Source: Candidatus Doudnabacteria bacterium (lineage in GTDB: Bacteria; Patescibacteriota; Doudnabacteria; UBA920; 2-01-FULL-46-14). Taken from it: 32,165 nucleotides of DNA. Below the pieces are notes generated by a model, which saw nothing but the letters and a program-made list of their open reading frames with translations, did no database searches and had not been told where the DNA came from. Where the stretch lies: positions 1 through 32,165 of the forward strand of contig JAHFJD010000007.1 in NCBI GenBank assembly GCA_023246055.1, read 5' to 3'. The translations under genes and the position numbers were made by a program. Positions 5,959-20,869 of the stretch are shown one piece after another. Each line of letters starts with the position of its first letter. Position 1 is the stretch's first letter.

Positions 5959-6639
5959 TCAGATGTTAAGTCTCCGGAGTTTTCCGAAGAATGAAAAAAT
6001 CAGAAACTTCACCGAGCACCAGCCGAGCACTTGCGCCGCCAGTCCGAACACCTTCGAGTTTGTGTTCAAAAAAATTATGATGCAGATGGTGGCGCAGATT
6101 TCGAGCGTTAGCTTGGCCCTGCCCCACGAATTGGAGCTCAAGTTTTTTAGAGCCTCCTCCTGGGGAACCTCGTAGAACCAGACGGCAAAAGCCAAATAAA
6201 GCACAGCAAACGTGAGATAGACTGACTCGCCGATGACTATGCTTGTCATGAACCAAGCTCGGAACCCGGAGTAGAAATAGATAGTGAGCACCACAGCGAT
6301 GACGAAGAGCTTATCAACCAGTGAATCAAACAGACCCCCCATGGAGCCTTTTGGTTTGTCTTCAATTCGAGCCAACCTGCCGTCAATATTGTCAGTCCAG
6401 GCGGCGAGCAGGACCAATGCGCATGATAACCAATAGCGCTGATACGCCAGCATCACACAGATCGGGACTATTGAGAGCATGCGGCTGGCCGTGACTTGGT
6501 TGGACGTAACTTCTTTTCGGTGCAACCAGCGGGCTTGCGGCAGAGCCAGCTCTCCGAGTTTGGCGTGGATCTTTTTGATGATTCCTTCTCCTTGTTCGGA
6601 AAAAAACCTGTACGTTGTCGTGATCGACGCGACAGTCAT
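5959..6639 (-). CDS. CDP-alcohol phosphatidyltransferase family protein
   Basis: Motif D-x2-D-G-x2-A-R…G-x3-D-x3-D in WTDNIDGRLARIEDKPKGSMGGLFDSLVDKL. Start MTVAS is favoured by GGAGGgacaaATG; ORF track begins at 6651. Confidence 0.9.
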   Translation of the reverse strand: MTVASITTTYRFFSEQGEGIIKKIHAKLGELALPQARWLHRKEVTSNQVTASRMLSIVPICVMLAYQRYWLSCALVLLAAWTDNIDGRLARIEDKPKGSMGGLFDSLVDKLFVIAVVLTIYFYSGFRAWFMTSIVIGESVYLTFAVLYLAFAVWFYEVPQEEALKNLSSNSWGRAKLTLEICATICIIIFLNTNSKVFGLAAQVLGWCSVKFLIFSFFGKLRRLNI

Positions 6640-6668
6640 TTGTCCCTCCATTTCAGATTGTAACTACA

Positions 6669-7589
6669 TCAGAACCATTTGTTCCTTTTGAAAATCCACA
6701 ATGTAATGAGTGATGCCAGGGCCATGAGAATGGCAACCAACCAGAATCCGTGCGGGTTATAGCGGAATGGGATACCTTCCACACTGACCCCAAACAGGAA
6801 AGCCACAAGAGTGGCAGGGATGACGATCGCAGAAAACACTGAAATAATTTTGGTCGTCTCCCCGAGGCGTCTGGCGACCAGGGCTTGGTTGGTATCCGCG
6901 AGACCATCCGCGGTTTCCTTGAGAGCCTCGAGTATATCCCAGATGTTTTCGTAATATTCCAACAGATCGCGGTAATAGAGCTTGGATTGGGCGAAATTGA
7001 AATATTCACTGGTTCGTTTGGGAAGCTTCTCCAACACTGAACGATGAGTCTTCATCATTTTGCGAAACTCAATGATGTTTTTTTTCATGAGCATGATTTT
7101 CGACAGCATGTTAGCACCAGTATCCCGAAATATTCCTTGTTCGATGGCCCCAATGTCTTCATTCATGTGATCGAGGATCGGGTAGGAGCGTTGAAACAAG
7201 CCCTCCAAGATTTTATACAGGAGGAATCCCGACCCTTTTTGCATATTTGCAGCTCTGACCCCGGCGCCATTTTTTATTGCCGCAAATATTTTGTTGATCG
7301 TGTGGATTTGATTGTAGTGCACCGTTATCACAAAATTTTGACTGATAAAAAAATCCACTTCGCCAGATACTATTTCTTGATTTTTTTGATCGTATACAGG
7401 GAACAATAAAACTAGAAAATCATACCCTCGGCCTGCGTCAAGGCGCGGGCGTTGCTGTTTCTCCCTAACCGCTTCGTAATGAAGTTGATGGAACCGGAAA
7501 TTAGCCTCAAGCCACTTGATGTCTTCCGCGGTTGGTTCGGGTATATCTATCCAACGCAAGTTTTTAGTGAAAATAGTGCGAGCGTTCAA
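6669..7589 (-). CDS. CorA-like divalent-metal transporter with non-canonical pore motif
   Basis: Two C-terminal TM helices, FLFGVSVEGIPF in the GMN-loop position, and KRNKWF tail; TTG start. Confidence 0.88.
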   Translation of the reverse strand: MNARTIFTKNLRWIDIPEPTAEDIKWLEANFRFHQLHYEAVREKQQRPRLDAGRGYDFLVLLFPVYDQKNQEIVSGEVDFFISQNFVITVHYNQIHTINKIFAAIKNGAGVRAANMQKGSGFLLYKILEGLFQRSYPILDHMNEDIGAIEQGIFRDTGANMLSKIMLMKKNIIEFRKMMKTHRSVLEKLPKRTSEYFNFAQSKLYYRDLLEYYENIWDILEALKETADGLADTNQALVARRLGETTKIISVFSAIVIPATLVAFLFGVSVEGIPFRYNPHGFWLVAILMALASLITLWIFKRNKWF

Positions 7590-7660
7590 AATGGTAGTTT
7601 AATTTTGGTTTCAGGGGTATTATATCATTAAATCGGCCTCAACCAAGTTTTTGCTCCCAA

Positions 7661-7689
7661 TTGTCAAAACAGACGGAGTATCGTATAAT
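7661..7689 (+). promoter_or_regulatory. Predicted sigma70-type promoter TTGTCA-N17-TATAAT, 6 nt before the ATG at 7696
   Basis: TTGTCA at 7661-7666; TATAAT at 7684-7689. Confidence 0.7.
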
Positions 7690-7695
7690 TTTTTT

Positions 7696-8076
7696 ATGGA
7701 GAAGCTCATGGCTATGGAATATGATTTGGAAAAAAGGATCGATGATTATTCAGCCGAATTATTCGCAGATTTGGGTTTGGCTTCGCTATCGGAAGAAGGC
7801 AAGGCTGATCTGTACGCTCGACTCGAGGATCATTTGCACCGGGTGATTATTTCGGTACTGCGGCCGCTCGTAGATGACGGGAAAATCGCCAAACTCAAGC
7901 AAGCCCTCGATCACGAGGACTATCATCCGGCGGGCGAGATTTTGCGGGCACATCCGCAATACAAAAACGACTTGGAATCGAAAATTGAAGAAGAGTTTAA
8001 CAGGCTTAAATTAACAATCGCCGAGGAGCAAAAAAATGTCGGAACAGGAAAAGACCCCGCCAGGGAAGGAAACTAA
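7696..8076 (+). CDS. Hypothetical acidic helical protein
   Basis: MEKLMAMEYDLEKRIDDYSAELFADLGLASLSEEGKADLYARLEDHL…; start placed by the upstream promoter; overlaps the next ORF. Confidence 0.7.
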   Translation: MEKLMAMEYDLEKRIDDYSAELFADLGLASLSEEGKADLYARLEDHLHRVIISVLRPLVDDGKIAKLKQALDHEDYHPAGEILRAHPQYKNDLESKIEEEFNRLKLTIAEEQKNVGTGKDPAREGN

Positions 8077-8455
8077 GGTCCAGCCTCTGGAAGCAGGACA
8101 GGTACCACCAGAATCAAGCGTTGAGCGGGATTTGAGAGAACTGGAAGCAGTCGCGACGGCTGGGCAAGAGGAAAATTTGCATGAGTCAGCACAGCCGCCA
8201 GGTCATCCTTCGGCGCCTGAAATTCCAGTACCCCTGCCACACGAGGAGTTTATAGCTGTCCACCCGGCAGTAGCGGGTTTGAAAAATTTGAGATTCGAGA
8301 TCAAAGCTGGAGCCGAAACAGCAAAAGATTTGAGATTCGAGATCAAAGCTGGAGCCGAAACAGCAAAAGATTTGAATGATCTTGACGTACTTGAAACAAA
8401 AGTGAAACAAGTTCAGGGATTAGAAGGGGAAGTTACTGATCTTGAAATAACATGA
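8036..8455 (+). CDS. Hypothetical low-complexity protein with a 14-aa tandem duplication
   Basis: ATG at 8036 overlaps the preceding gene; stop overlaps the next start (ATGA); contains LRFEIKAGAETAKD twice. Confidence 0.65.
   Translation: MSEQEKTPPGKETKVQPLEAGQVPPESSVERDLRELEAVATAGQEENLHESAQPPGHPSAPEIPVPLPHEEFIAVHPAVAGLKNLRFEIKAGAETAKDLRFEIKAGAETAKDLNDLDVLETKVKQVQGLEGEVTDLEIT
8287..8370 (+). repeat. Exact 42-bp tandem duplication (2 copies)
   Basis: tttgagattcgagatcaaagctggagccgaaacagcaaaaga at 8287-8328 and 8329-8370. Confidence 0.97.
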
Positions 8456-10962
8456 GTGATCCATTTCTAGTCATATTTTTTTTCCTGCTCCTCTTGGTTG
8501 TGGCGGGAGGCGTGGTTCTGTTTTGGTACCGCAGTAAAGTTCGCCGCGAGCTCGACGGACAGAGGCTCGTGGATTCGGTATTTCTTGAAGTCCTGATGAC
8601 GCGCGAAACTGGCAGTGCTGACAAGGAAAAAGAACCTGCAAAAGAAGAAAAGGAAATTATCGGAGTTGCCGAGCAGTTGTTCGCGACCCTGTCTCACCCG
8701 GAAAATCGGGGTTTTTCGATTTTCCTGCATGGCCGCGAAACCTTATCTTTTGAAATAGTGGCTATGCAGAAAAAGATTCATTTCCTGGTTTGTTGTCCAG
8801 CGCGGCTTCGCGATCTCGTTGAGAAGCAGATTCAAGCGCAGTATCCGACCGCGCAAATTGATCGTGTTTTGCCGCCGAAGGTCGTGAGATCTGGGGGAGG
8901 TATCTCGGCCATCGAACTCCGTTTACAAAAAAAATATTTTTATCCGATCAAGACTTACAAACTCATGGAGAGCGATCCGCTCAACTCTATCACGAGCAGT
9001 CTCTCCAAGCTTTCCGAAGAGGAAGCGGCAGCCGTGCAATTCATCCTCAGCCCCGCGTCTTTGGGCTGGCGAAGCCGTATCCTGCGGCGAGCCCGGGAAA
9101 TACAGAAAGGTGGGAGCATTTACGCTCACGATAACCCATTGCTCAAAGGCCTGCATATCTTCATGACTGCCATGACCGATGCCTTTCACAATGTTTCATC
9201 AAACAAGCGTAGCCCCGAGTCAAAGCTCGATCCATACCAGGAGCGTCAGCCCTTGACCCCTCTCCAGCAAGACGCAGTGAAAAAGCTCGAGGAGAAAGCT
9301 TCAAAAAACGCATTCGAGGCAAACCTCCGCATTGTGATTTCCTCCCGCGACAGTGAAATGGCCGGAAGCCATATGCGTAATATGATCGCATCCTTTATGC
9401 AGTTCACACAGTCACCGTTTAACGGTTTTCGCGTTTTGAACAAGAGCACAGCGAGAGTTGTTCGCGATTTTGTGTTTCGGTCCCTGAAATCGAGAATCTT
9501 CGGGAAAATGATTCTCAATACCGAGGAATGCGCGAGTATTTATCATTTCCCCACAAAATATATTCAAACTCCGAACGTCCGGTGGCTCTCGGCCAAGCGG
9601 GCGCCAGCGCCAGTAAACATTCCTGCGGAAGGCTTGCTTTTGGGGCTCAACAATTACCGCGGGGTGCGGTCTGAAATCCGGATCGCCCGCGACGACCGAC
9701 GTCGTCACATGTATATCATTGGCCGGACCGGCACTGGTAAATCAGAATTCATCAAAAACATGGTAGCGCAAGACATCCAGGCCGGAGAGGGTGTGGCTGT
9801 TGTTGATCCTCACGGCGACCTCGTTGAAGCGCTTCTTTTAGAGGTCCCGAAAGAGCGGGCGGATGATGTCGTGCTGTTTGAACCATTTGATATGGATCGG
9901 CCGATGGGCCTGAATATGCTCGAGGTGGCAAGCGACGAGGAAAAGGATTTTGCGGTCCAGGAAATGATTGAGATTTTTTATAAACTTTTCCCGCCGGAAA
10001 TGATTGGTCCGATGTTTGAACACAATATGCGCAACGTGATGCTCACTCTCATGGCTGACAAGCAGTACCCCGGGACCATTGCAGAGATTCCGCGAATGTT
10101 TACTGATCCCGAGTTTCAACGTTACAAGGTCGAAAAGGTCAGTGACGTCGTGGTCCGGGCATTTTGGGAGCAGGAAATGGCTAAAACCAGTGATTTTCAC
10201 AAATCGGAAATGCTCGGATATCTTATCTCCAAGGTTGGCCGGTTTGTGGAAAACGAAATGATGCGCAACATCATCGGCCAGCCGCATTCGGCTTTCAATC
10301 TCCGGCAAATCATGGACGAAGGCAAGATATTGCTCATCAATTTGTCCAAAGGCAAAACCGGTGAAGTGAACTCCAAACTCTTGGGACTGATCATCGTCTC
10401 GAAACTGCAGATGGCTGCGCTCTCGCGCGCTGATCTTCCGGAATCAGAGCGCCGCGATTTTTATCTGTACATCGATGAATTTCAGAATTTTGTGACGGAT
10501 AGCATTGCGACCATCTTGTCCGAGGCTCGGAAATACAAATTGAACCTGATCATGGCGCATCAGTATATTTCCCAGCTGGTTGCGGATAATAACACGAAGA
10601 TTCGCGATGCAGTGTTTGGCAACGCGGGCACTGTGGTGGCGTTCCGCATCGGCGTGGAGGACGCGGAAATTCTGTCCCGCGAATTTGCTCCCGTATTCAA
10701 CGAATTTGATGTCATCAACATCGACCGGTTTAACGCCTACATAAAACTCATGATTGCCGGGTCAGGTTCCCGGCCGTTTAATCTCGCGACTTTGCCGCCT
10801 CACCCGATGGTACCTGGGAAGATTGAAGCCGCGGCGGCATTGAAGAAGCTTTCCAAACTCAAATATGGCAGACCCAGAGCCGAGGTGGAAGCAGATATTG
10901 CGGCAAGCGCGAAGCTTGGCAAACTTACGGCTCCCTCTGGAGCTGTGGAGCGCAGCGCATGA
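8452..10962 (+). CDS. Membrane-anchored VirD4/TraD-like (type IV secretion coupling protein type) ATPase
   Basis: N-terminal TM; Walker A IIGRTGTGKSEFIKNM; VVDPHGDLVEALL; Walker B LYIDEFQNF; ARKYKLNLIMAHQYISQL. Confidence 0.9.
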   Translation: MSDPFLVIFFFLLLLVVAGGVVLFWYRSKVRRELDGQRLVDSVFLEVLMTRETGSADKEKEPAKEEKEIIGVAEQLFATLSHPENRGFSIFLHGRETLSFEIVAMQKKIHFLVCCPARLRDLVEKQIQAQYPTAQIDRVLPPKVVRSGGGISAIELRLQKKYFYPIKTYKLMESDPLNSITSSLSKLSEEEAAAVQFILSPASLGWRSRILRRAREIQKGGSIYAHDNPLLKGLHIFMTAMTDAFHNVSSNKRSPESKLDPYQERQPLTPLQQDAVKKLEEKASKNAFEANLRIVISSRDSEMAGSHMRNMIASFMQFTQSPFNGFRVLNKSTARVVRDFVFRSLKSRIFGKMILNTEECASIYHFPTKYIQTPNVRWLSAKRAPAPVNIPAEGLLLGLNNYRGVRSEIRIARDDRRRHMYIIGRTGTGKSEFIKNMVAQDIQAGEGVAVVDPHGDLVEALLLEVPKERADDVVLFEPFDMDRPMGLNMLEVASDEEKDFAVQEMIEIFYKLFPPEMIGPMFEHNMRNVMLTLMADKQYPGTIAEIPRMFTDPEFQRYKVEKVSDVVVRAFWEQEMAKTSDFHKSEMLGYLISKVGRFVENEMMRNIIGQPHSAFNLRQIMDEGKILLINLSKGKTGEVNSKLLGLIIVSKLQMAALSRADLPESERRDFYLYIDEFQNFVTDSIATILSEARKYKLNLIMAHQYISQLVADNNTKIRDAVFGNAGTVVAFRIGVEDAEILSREFAPVFNEFDVINIDRFNAYIKLMIAGSGSRPFNLATLPPHPMVPGKIEAAAALKKLSKLKYGRPRAEVEADIAASAKLGKLTAPSGAVERSA

Positions 10963-11081: not shown

Positions 11082-11684
11082 GTGGATAAGCTATCGAATC
11101 TCGCGCTTTTAAGCCAAATGCTCGAAAGCGCGGAAAAAAATATTCAGTCCGCCAAACAACTCCTCCACGAAATCATGGGTACGAGGAGTTCGGTTCAGAG
11201 TATCACGGATAAAGCCAAGACCGTGGCAGTGTCGAGTGGTGGCAAAATCATCGAGGGGGTGTTTGATGGCCAGAACATGATGGGTCCGGATGGCAAAAAA
11301 TATCCGGTGCCGGCAAACTATGCTTCCAAATCGAAACTCATCGAGGGTGATGTGCTCAAACTTACTATTGCGGACGATGGCTCGTTTATCTATAAACAAA
11401 TCGGGCCCGTGGAGCGAGTCAAGAAACTTGGTGTGCTGTCGCAAACAGAAAACGGTGAATATCGCGTGGTGGCGGACGGCAAGAGTTTTCGCGTGCTCCT
11501 GGCCTCGCTTACTTATTTCAAGGCTGAACCGGGCGACCAAGTGACAATCATTGTGCCGCAAAACGGGGAAACGGATTGGGCCGCCGTGGAAAACGTGATT
11601 AAGGCTGACGGTCTATCAGTGGATGCCCCTTCCGCAGCCGCAAGCGCCGAAGACATTGACCGTGATCTTGAGCTCGGGGAGTAA
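11082..11684 (+). CDS. Conserved-looking hypothetical protein, coiled N-terminus plus beta-rich domain
   Basis: 200-aa ORF, GTG start, codon usage consistent with neighbours; no family recognised. Confidence 0.7.
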   Translation: MDKLSNLALLSQMLESAEKNIQSAKQLLHEIMGTRSSVQSITDKAKTVAVSSGGKIIEGVFDGQNMMGPDGKKYPVPANYASKSKLIEGDVLKLTIADDGSFIYKQIGPVERVKKLGVLSQTENGEYRVVADGKSFRVLLASLTYFKAEPGDQVTIIVPQNGETDWAAVENVIKADGLSVDAPSAAASAEDIDRDLELGE

Positions 11685-11845
11685 GAGCCTGTTGAAAAAC
11701 TTGCTTTTGAGATAAAATGTTCAGAATTTTGAGCGAAAACTTTGAAAAAAGCGGAAGCGATGCCAGAGCATCGATGAGCCTTTTGAAAAGTTTGCAGCCT
11801 AAATTCTGACATTTTAGCCAAATCTGAAGTTATTAAACAGGCTCT
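11684..11845. mobile_element. MITE-like 162-bp long hairpin element (copy 1)
   Basis: Ends AGAGCCTGTT…AACAGGCTCT; the two halves pair almost throughout; apex CGATGC-cag-a-GCATCG; TAA on both sides of GAGCC…GGCTC. Confidence 0.75.
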
Positions 11846-11850
11846 AAGAC

Positions 11851-16607: not shown

Positions 16608-16647
16608 ATATACCACAGATTTCATGATCATGAAATCTGTGGTATAT
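16608..16647. repeat. Perfect 40-bp palindrome without spacer
   Basis: ATATACCACAGATTTCATGA|TCATGAAATCTGTGGTATAT. Confidence 0.97.
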
Positions 16648-17722: not shown

Positions 17723-18289
17723 TTAGCGAAATTCCGCGTAGCTAAACATGATCCCGAATGACTTGGACCACACCAGAACATATCGGTATTTGGCTGTGTC
17801 AGTGTTTGCGGGAACGTTATAGTTCACATTGCCTTTGGTTGCGCGGATGGGCCCGAGATCCACAATGTCTTTGTCAGAAAGGTTTGAGGCCAGATAAATA
17901 CGGAGCTCTGGACCATTTAATGTGTCCAAATTTTCAAATCGTAGGATTTTTTGACCACCCACTTCGAGGAGTGAGACTGCGCCCGAAACATTGAACGCGC
18001 GAGGTGAGAGAGTGCCGCGGGAATGCAGTACGAGAGGAGCGTCCCGGAGCTGGTCATTGAGGGTCTTGGCAGCAGCATCATTGACCTCTTGCATGGCAAT
18101 ATTGAACCTTTCCGTGGTGGTCGCGTCCATGCCATAGAGGTTGTCCTGAATCTGCACTGACGGCTGCGTCTGACTGGGTTCCTTTTGGTGAAGAGTGGGG
18201 GAGACAAAATACCATAGCAGAGACAGCGCCGCGATTGTTGCCACTATTGTGAGTATGTCTTTTTTGGTCACGGTTTGAGTCTGTTTCAC
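17723..18289 (-). CDS. DM13-domain membrane-anchored protein
   Basis: N-terminal TM; SRGTLSPRAFNVSGAVSLLEVGGQKILRFENLDTLNGPELRIYLAS…VDLGPI…GNVNYNVP…YRYVLVWSKSFGIMFSYAEF; GTG start. Confidence 0.85.
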   Translation of the reverse strand: MKQTQTVTKKDILTIVATIAALSLLWYFVSPTLHQKEPSQTQPSVQIQDNLYGMDATTTERFNIAMQEVNDAAAKTLNDQLRDAPLVLHSRGTLSPRAFNVSGAVSLLEVGGQKILRFENLDTLNGPELRIYLASNLSDKDIVDLGPIRATKGNVNYNVPANTDTAKYRYVLVWSKSFGIMFSYAEFR

Positions 18290-18350
18290 AACTTCAGATT
18301 TGCCTAAAATGTGAAAACTTTATCTCAAAAGCAAGTTATTCAACTGGCTC
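18277..18350. mobile_element. Short (74-bp) derivative of the MITE-like element (copy 2, inverted relative to copy 1)
   Basis: Reverse complement GAGCCAGTTGAATAACTTGCTTTTGAGATAAA…ACATTTTAGGCAAATCTGAAGTTGTGAAACAGACTC matches both ends of copy 1; TTT on both sides. Confidence 0.7.
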
Positions 18351-18377: not shown

Positions 18378-18488
18378 TGAAAAGCAAGAAAACCCCGGGG
18401 TCAGGAGGACCTTTTCCCCGGGGTTCGGCTATCAGAAGAGGTTGATGGCAGGCTCTTCGTCAGCCGAAAATTACAATTAGTATTATAG
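18378..18488 (-). ncRNA. Candidate small RNA with two hairpins, the second a terminator
   Basis: Minus strand TATAAT, then CGGCTGACGAAGAG…CTCTTCTGATAGCCG hairpin, then AACCCCGGGG-aaaaggtcctcctga-CCCCGGGGTT-TTCTTGCTTTT. Confidence 0.45.
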
Positions 18489-18635
18489 CGACAAACATCC
18501 TCCTACTAGTTATGGACGGATTGTATAGTAAACGTGAGTTAATTTCAACAGCCAAAGCAAGTTTTGGACGTTCTTAAATACAGTTTAAATTGAATTATTA
18601 TCGTTTTTTTGATACAGTTGAAGGCGATTGCCCGG

Positions 18636-18692
18636 TAGCCCCGCCTTCGCTAAAGCTACGGCGGGCAGGCAAGCGGGCCCGCCAGAGGCGGG
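18636..18692. repeat. Composite GC-rich palindromic repeat
   Basis: CCCCGCCTTCGCTAAAGCTACGGCGGGCAGGCAAGCGGGCCCGCCAGAGGCGGG; the last 15 bp recur exactly at 12971-12985. Confidence 0.85.
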
Positions 18693-18741: not shown

Positions 18742-18813
<72 letters not shown>

Positions 18814-18930
18814 CCTTGTGCAGGAGAGCAATCATTCGTAGGTTCCCCGCCATCAATAAAATCCTTAGCGGCGGGTCCGCTTTTGGCGGAGAATCCATCC
18901 CGGGCAGCCATATAATTAAAATTAAAAATT

Positions 18931-19861: not shown

Positions 19862-20869
19862 ATGATGATCAAAGCGGAATACATTTGGCTCGATGGGCAA
19901 AAACTAACAGCCCAAGCTCGGTCAAAAACCAAAATTTTGCACCACGCGGTGCGTTCCTTGTACGAAATCCCGGAGTGGGGATTCGATGGGTCGAGCACTA
20001 TGCAGGCCGAAGGACATGCCAGCGATTGCCAGCTGAAGCCTGTGTTTTTCACAGGCGATCCGATTCGGGGCGAAGAGCACATCCTCGTTCTCTGCGAGGT
20101 TTTGCAGGCGGACGGACAGATCCATTCGAGCAATACTCGAGCTCGATTGAGAACGGTCGCGGAAAAATATGCCAGTCTCGAGTCGTGGTTTGGTATTGAG
20201 CAGGAATATACCCTGTTTCGGGGTGACCGGCCATTCGGGTTTCCAGAGGTTGTATTTCCCGGGCCCCAAGGTCCGTATTATTGCGGCGTGGGAGCGGAAA
20301 ATATTTACGGCCGGGAACTCGTAGAGGAGCACCTGGAGGCCTGTTTGCGCGCGGGCCTTGTGATCAGCGGTATTAATGCAGAGGTTATGCCTGGTCAGTG
20401 GGAGTTTCAGGTTGGCCCGCTTGGCCCGCTTGGGGCGGCTGACCAGATGTGGATAGCGCGCTGGCTTCTGCGCCGGCTGGGGGAAAAATATGGGATTACG
20501 GTTTCCTTTGGCCCCAAGCCAGTAACAGGTGACTGGAATGGCGCTGGGGCGCACACCAATTTTTCAACTCGGCGGATGCGTGACACCGGAGGGATAGAAG
20601 AAGTTCGCGCCGCGTGCGAAAAACTGAAACTCAAGCACAATGAACACATTGCCGTGTACGGTGCGGGTAATGAGTTACGTCTCACTGGCAAGCATGAGAC
20701 CGCGCGCATTGATGAATTCCGCTACGGTGTGTCTGATCGCGGCGCTTCGATCCGTATCCCCATGGTTACCGCCAACAACCACGCGGGATATCTCGAAGAC
20801 CGCCGTCCAGCAGCCAATATGGATCCCTATCAGGTCTGCGCCCGGATCATCGAGACAGTTGCTAGCTAG
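19862..20869 (+). CDS. glnA: Glutamine synthetase, type II (eukaryotic-type GSII)
   Basis: AEYIWLDG…SKTK, WGFDGSSTMQAEG, GIEQEYTLF, NAEVMPGQWEFQVGP, NGAGAHTNFST, GVSDRGASIRIP, YLEDRRPAANMDPY. Confidence 0.95.
   Translation: MMIKAEYIWLDGQKLTAQARSKTKILHHAVRSLYEIPEWGFDGSSTMQAEGHASDCQLKPVFFTGDPIRGEEHILVLCEVLQADGQIHSSNTRARLRTVAEKYASLESWFGIEQEYTLFRGDRPFGFPEVVFPGPQGPYYCGVGAENIYGRELVEEHLEACLRAGLVISGINAEVMPGQWEFQVGPLGPLGAADQMWIARWLLRRLGEKYGITVSFGPKPVTGDWNGAGAHTNFSTRRMRDTGGIEEVRAACEKLKLKHNEHIAVYGAGNELRLTGKHETARIDEFRYGVSDRGASIRIPMVTANNHAGYLEDRRPAANMDPYQVCARIIETVAS

Follow-up and report, generated by a model that had tools for sequence, protein, structure and literature searches.

We examined an intergenic locus in a 32,165-nt stretch of a Candidatus Doudnabacteria genome (contig 63 of the 1.16-Mb draft; the whole stretch is referred to as the window), and its most likely reading, judged from sequence, is an orphan small RNA (sRNA) gene on the minus strand that ends in an intrinsic terminator. 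The predicted RNA, about 120–135 nt long, would start near position 18513 and end near 18385. Its 5' segment would be largely unpaired and followed first by a stable hairpin and then by the terminator hairpin, which presents UCCUCCU, an anti-Shine-Dalgarno (anti-SD)-like motif, in a 15-nt loop. The feature lies between a plus-strand tRNA-Gln and a minus-strand gene for a DM13-domain protein. No gene upstream on the minus strand could be served by the terminator, and the feature has a promoter-like site of its own (identified as a consensus match), as would be expected of a separate sRNA gene.

All of the elements named on the minus strand in an original prediction made from the sequence were present and could be read directly (Table 1). 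Hairpin 1 has the form TTCGGCT-GAC-GAAGAG, a 12-nt loop, and CTCTTC-TGAT-AGCCGAA. Hairpin 2 consists of the arms AACCCCGGGG (18425–18416) and CCCCGGGGTT (18400–18391) around the loop aaaaggUCCUCCUga (18415–18401; also written AAAAGGTCCTCCTGA or AAAAGGUCCUCCUGA), and is followed directly by the tail TTCTTGCTTTT. The 10-bp terminator stem of the original prediction is present, with the amendment that its two outer A's are common to hairpin 1; the two stems are therefore never both full, forming either 7 + 8 bp or 5 + 10 bp. The predicted fold is exceptional: positions 18515–18380 gave −49 kcal/mol, compared with −33.4 ± 3.7 kcal/mol for shuffled sequences (z −4.26), and none of 200 shuffles folded as well. 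Thus the locus combines a stable fold with a terminal G+C-rich hairpin and U tract, the features sought in intergenic, terminator-ended sRNAs. Genome statistics were collected from 378 kb taken as stretches, about a third of the genome. Among the 26 orphan intergenic terminators found there, the candidate ranked third by the amount of structure in the 60 nt preceding the stem.

The TATAAT box of the original prediction had been described as lacking an obvious −35 element, which agrees with our promoter scans, where no partner hexamer was found. Upstream of it and outside the region first described lies TTGAAA-17-TACAAT, which by consensus match alone is the better promoter candidate and whose distance from the predicted RNA is suitable. 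Sites with at least 10/12 matches occurred 31 times upstream of genes, 18 times on the opposite strand and 3 times in reversed sequences, an excess of about tenfold over the reversed sequences but of only 1.7-fold over the opposite strand. A promoter at 18548–18520 would place the transcript start near 18513, and the 5' segment of the RNA would therefore include AGGAGGA (18504–18498), which is perfectly complementary to UCCUCCU in the loop and which the original prediction had overlooked. The duplex between the two (18504–18498 with 18409–18403) has a calculated energy of about −15.6 kcal/mol, and a 7-nt complementarity between leader and loop was reached by 0.7% of 20000 leader shuffles, in a test conceived post hoc, once the AGGAGGA match had been seen. 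The terminator loop could accordingly be masked by the RNA's own 5' end for part of the time. A tiny open reading frame (ORF) encoding MFVAIILIVIFG was considered as a leader peptide and rejected; its AUG follows AGGAGG immediately, a spacing near background in this genome, and it is probably not translated.

The complementarity of UCCUCC to AGGAGG and to ribosome-binding sites, proposed originally, is real in this host. The 16S 3'-end pattern GGATCACCTCCTTT, which contains CCTCC, is present in the genome at C2:6137, and pairing of SD sites with CCUCC is therefore available. Spacings between AGGAGG and ATG peak at 3–5 nt, with a spacing of 0 near background; this peak was the sole measure of SD usage that we relied on, the reversed-motif control being poor (reversed AGGAGG overlaps AGGAGGA). 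The unpaired stretch complementary to host SD sites that characterizes anti-SD sRNAs is found here as the loop UCCUCCU. In a duplex scan, the loop paired with gene-start regions at −12 kcal/mol or below in 77 of 307 genes, compared with 9–66 for eight shuffled loops, a weak signal, and many pairable gene starts are expected of any anti-SD sequence. The scan thus listed many SD-bearing genes as potential targets and singled out none, and support for the proposed action of the loop on ribosome-binding sites extends as far as this complementarity.

The host 16S rRNA gene occupies positions 6137–8873 of locus L103 (G000:C2, minus strand) and appears to be split by large insertions, which hold ORFs of 224 aa (7991–8665) and 213 aa (6733–7374) with, by eye, the look of LAGLIDADG-type homing endonucleases. 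The 3'-end sequence lies about 1.35 kb beyond the last matched 16S stretch.

We tentatively propose that an orphan sRNA is transcribed from TTGAAA-17-TACAAT and represses translation through pairing of its terminator loop with AGGAGG-type SD sites of mRNAs, while its own 5' AGGAGGA holds the loop partly in check. The original reading as an sRNA gene is supported by the promoter-like site, the terminator-like hairpin, the exceptional predicted fold and the orphan position between genes; the anti-SD action does not stand on the same footing. In favour of the proposal, the candidate was the only one of 222 terminator-like hairpins in the 378 kb to have TCCTCC in its loop. Several observations weigh against it. 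The U tract is broken by other letters (UUUUCUUGCUUUU), and the 5' complement might keep the loop away from any target. Among the same 222 hairpins, loops with CCTCC, TCCTC or CTCCT were no commoner than the GGAGG/AGGAG control (4/222 and 3/222, respectively); a single C-rich, anti-SD-like terminator loop is therefore about what chance would give.

The homology searches also count against it. The candidate was single copy in its own genome by BLAST, and BLAST against this genome and 17 relatives returned only chance-level matches of 14–27 bases. A covariance model (R1) run on 49 genomes of the order (this one and 48 others) recovered the window itself and nothing else, as it did in loci totalling about 500 kb; a class-level search covered the same 49 genomes. 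No Rfam family matched the candidate's strand, either at gathering score or at E values up to 5. Assignment to a known RNA family was rejected, tRNA-Gln being the only feature in the window to reach Rfam gathering level, as was a weak match to the P9 family (15.2 bits, where the cut-off is 43), which lay elsewhere on the other strand. No copy was found in viral contigs (exact 19-mer search) or in the plasmids and phages searched, and a scan of GTDB genomes for DM13 yielded no close relative. Conservation of stems and loop, suggested originally as a check, could thus not be shown: neither a homologue nor covariation was found among genomes of the same family and order, none of them of the same genus. 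This takes away the strongest possible support for function. Small RNAs turn over quickly, and absence at this distance is therefore weak evidence against function.

Among other explanations, an sRNA or short terminated transcript in which UCCUCCU has no role at ribosome-binding sites is a somewhat doubtful possibility; the motif would then be a chance C-rich loop or part of a stabilizing pseudoknot with the 5' AGGAGGA. The control-level frequency of C-rich loops in this genome's terminators fits the former, and the strength and rarity of the leader–loop complementarity fit the latter, but the loop matches the 16S anti-SD core exactly, and the shuffle test bearing on the pseudoknot is the post hoc one. 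In a further reading, which we consider improbable, the RNA would be a self-masked anti-SD RNA: its 5' AGGAGGA would act as an SD mimic that pairs with the loop, free ribosomes or SD-rich mRNAs would compete for either half, and the RNA would in this way sense or titrate translation capacity.

It is unlikely that the hairpins form a 5' leader that attenuates transcription of the DM13 gene, with most transcripts stopping at the terminator, DM13 being expressed by read-through and a small mobile element having been inserted later. The gene is on the same strand, its GTG start (18271) lies about 120 nt past the terminator, and nothing lies in the interval but the remnant of the mobile element and a weak site resembling a promoter (9/12). 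The presence of this separate site also counts against an attenuator, however; no alternative antiterminator pairing was seen, the terminator stem being retained in the minimum-free-energy fold as well as in the centroid fold, and the DM13 genes of three other Doudnabacteria genomes lie in unrelated neighbourhoods and have no such leader. Less likely again is the absence of any functional RNA, with inverted repeats amid repeat and mobile-element debris having been taken for a terminator by eye. The degenerate element at 18275–18349, a widespread G+C-rich repeat at 18625–18676 and the lack of detected conservation would suit this explanation. Both hairpins are single copy, however, and hence do not belong to the repeats of this genome, and the fold z-score and the correct order of promoter-like site and terminator also speak against it.

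Table 1. Features of the candidate sRNA locus and its surroundings (window coordinates).
Feature	Position	Strand	Basis or remark
Promoter-like TTGAAA-17-TACAAT	18548–18520	minus	10/12 consensus matches; preferred promoter of the putative RNA
AGGAGGA	18504–18498	minus	Exact complement of loop UCCUCCU; possible intramolecular pseudoknot
Tiny ORF MFVAIILIVIFG-stop, 12 codons	18498–18460	minus	ATG directly behind AGGAGG, zero spacing
TATAAT box of the original prediction	18487–18482	minus	Sequence; no extended −10
Hairpin 1	18468–18424	minus	45 nt; 7 + 6 bp with internal loop; sequence and fold
Hairpin 2	18425–18391	minus	G+C-rich stem of 8–10 bp, intrinsic-terminator type; fold and terminator scans
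UCCUCCU, anti-SD-like	18409–18403	minus	Inside hairpin 2 (terminator) loop; sequence
U-rich tail TTTTCTTGCTTTTC	18379–18392	minus	Sequence
Degenerate palindromic mobile element (MITE-like), ~75 bp	18275–18349	minus	Between candidate RNA and DM13 gene; context, outside the RNA
DM13-domain protein gene	17723–18271	minus	Pfam DM13, E 1.4e-13; downstream context
tRNA-Gln	18742–18815	plus	Upstream neighbour of candidate RNA

In the DM13 scan of GTDB genomes, the nearest DM13 relatives of this genome belonged to Candidatus Doudnabacteria (Patescibacteria). The DM13 start is probably GTG 18271 and not GTG 18289, because the latter lies inside the mobile element and because of the N-termini of relatives. 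This element resembles a miniature inverted-repeat transposable element (MITE), with terminal repeats GAGCCTGTT..AACAGGCTC, and its decayed copy lies immediately next to the start codon of DM13. Full copies of about 160 bp are present at 11683–11847 of the window and on several other contigs, and one same-family genome (G003) carries related copies. The G+C-rich repeat at 18625–18676 (CCGCCTTCGCTAAAGCTACGGCGGG) recurs at numerous sites in this genome and is also present in others of the family, and a 40-bp palindrome at 16608–16647 (ATATACCACAGATTTCATGATCATGAAATCTGTGGTATAT) has its core repeated on contigs C54 (twice), C23, C47 and C3. About 1 kb from tRNA-Gln, the window also encodes a glutamine synthetase-like protein (19862–20869) of only 335 aa, with partial coverage of the catalytic domain (Gln-synt_C positions 4–156 of 344).

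At present the locus is a single, uncharacterised candidate unsupported by genome comparison, and a literature search on noncoding RNAs of Doudnabacteria and the candidate phyla radiation, which used narrow terms and had partial coverage, found no paper. Its organization can be compared with several known systems. Like 5'-leader attenuators, it places an intrinsic terminator ahead of a gene, DM13, on that gene's coding strand; unlike them, it shows no alternative antiterminator pairing in the predicted fold, nor do DM13 relatives share a conserved leader. The CiaR-dependent sRNAs of streptococci (csRNAs) have two stem-loops, the last being the terminator, and an unpaired stretch complementary to SD sites, which are proposed to be blocked by it (PMC3091779). 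The candidate shares the small gene, the two stem-loops with a terminal terminator and the unpaired SD-complementary stretch, whereas its anti-SD stretch sits in the terminator loop and lacks CAU, and its host belongs to an unrelated phylum. In Staphylococcus aureus, the C-rich UCCC seeds of RNAIII and RsaE pair with G-rich SD sequences and block translation (PMC9217828). The candidate likewise has a C-rich stretch able to pair with such sequences, whereas its motif is UCCUCC rather than UCCC(C), and Rfam detects no similarity. By analogy, it appears to resemble RNAIII, RsaE and the csRNAs in logic, without sign of common descent; if proven, it would indicate that the SD-targeting kind of regulation described in Firmicutes extends to reduced patescibacterial genomes.
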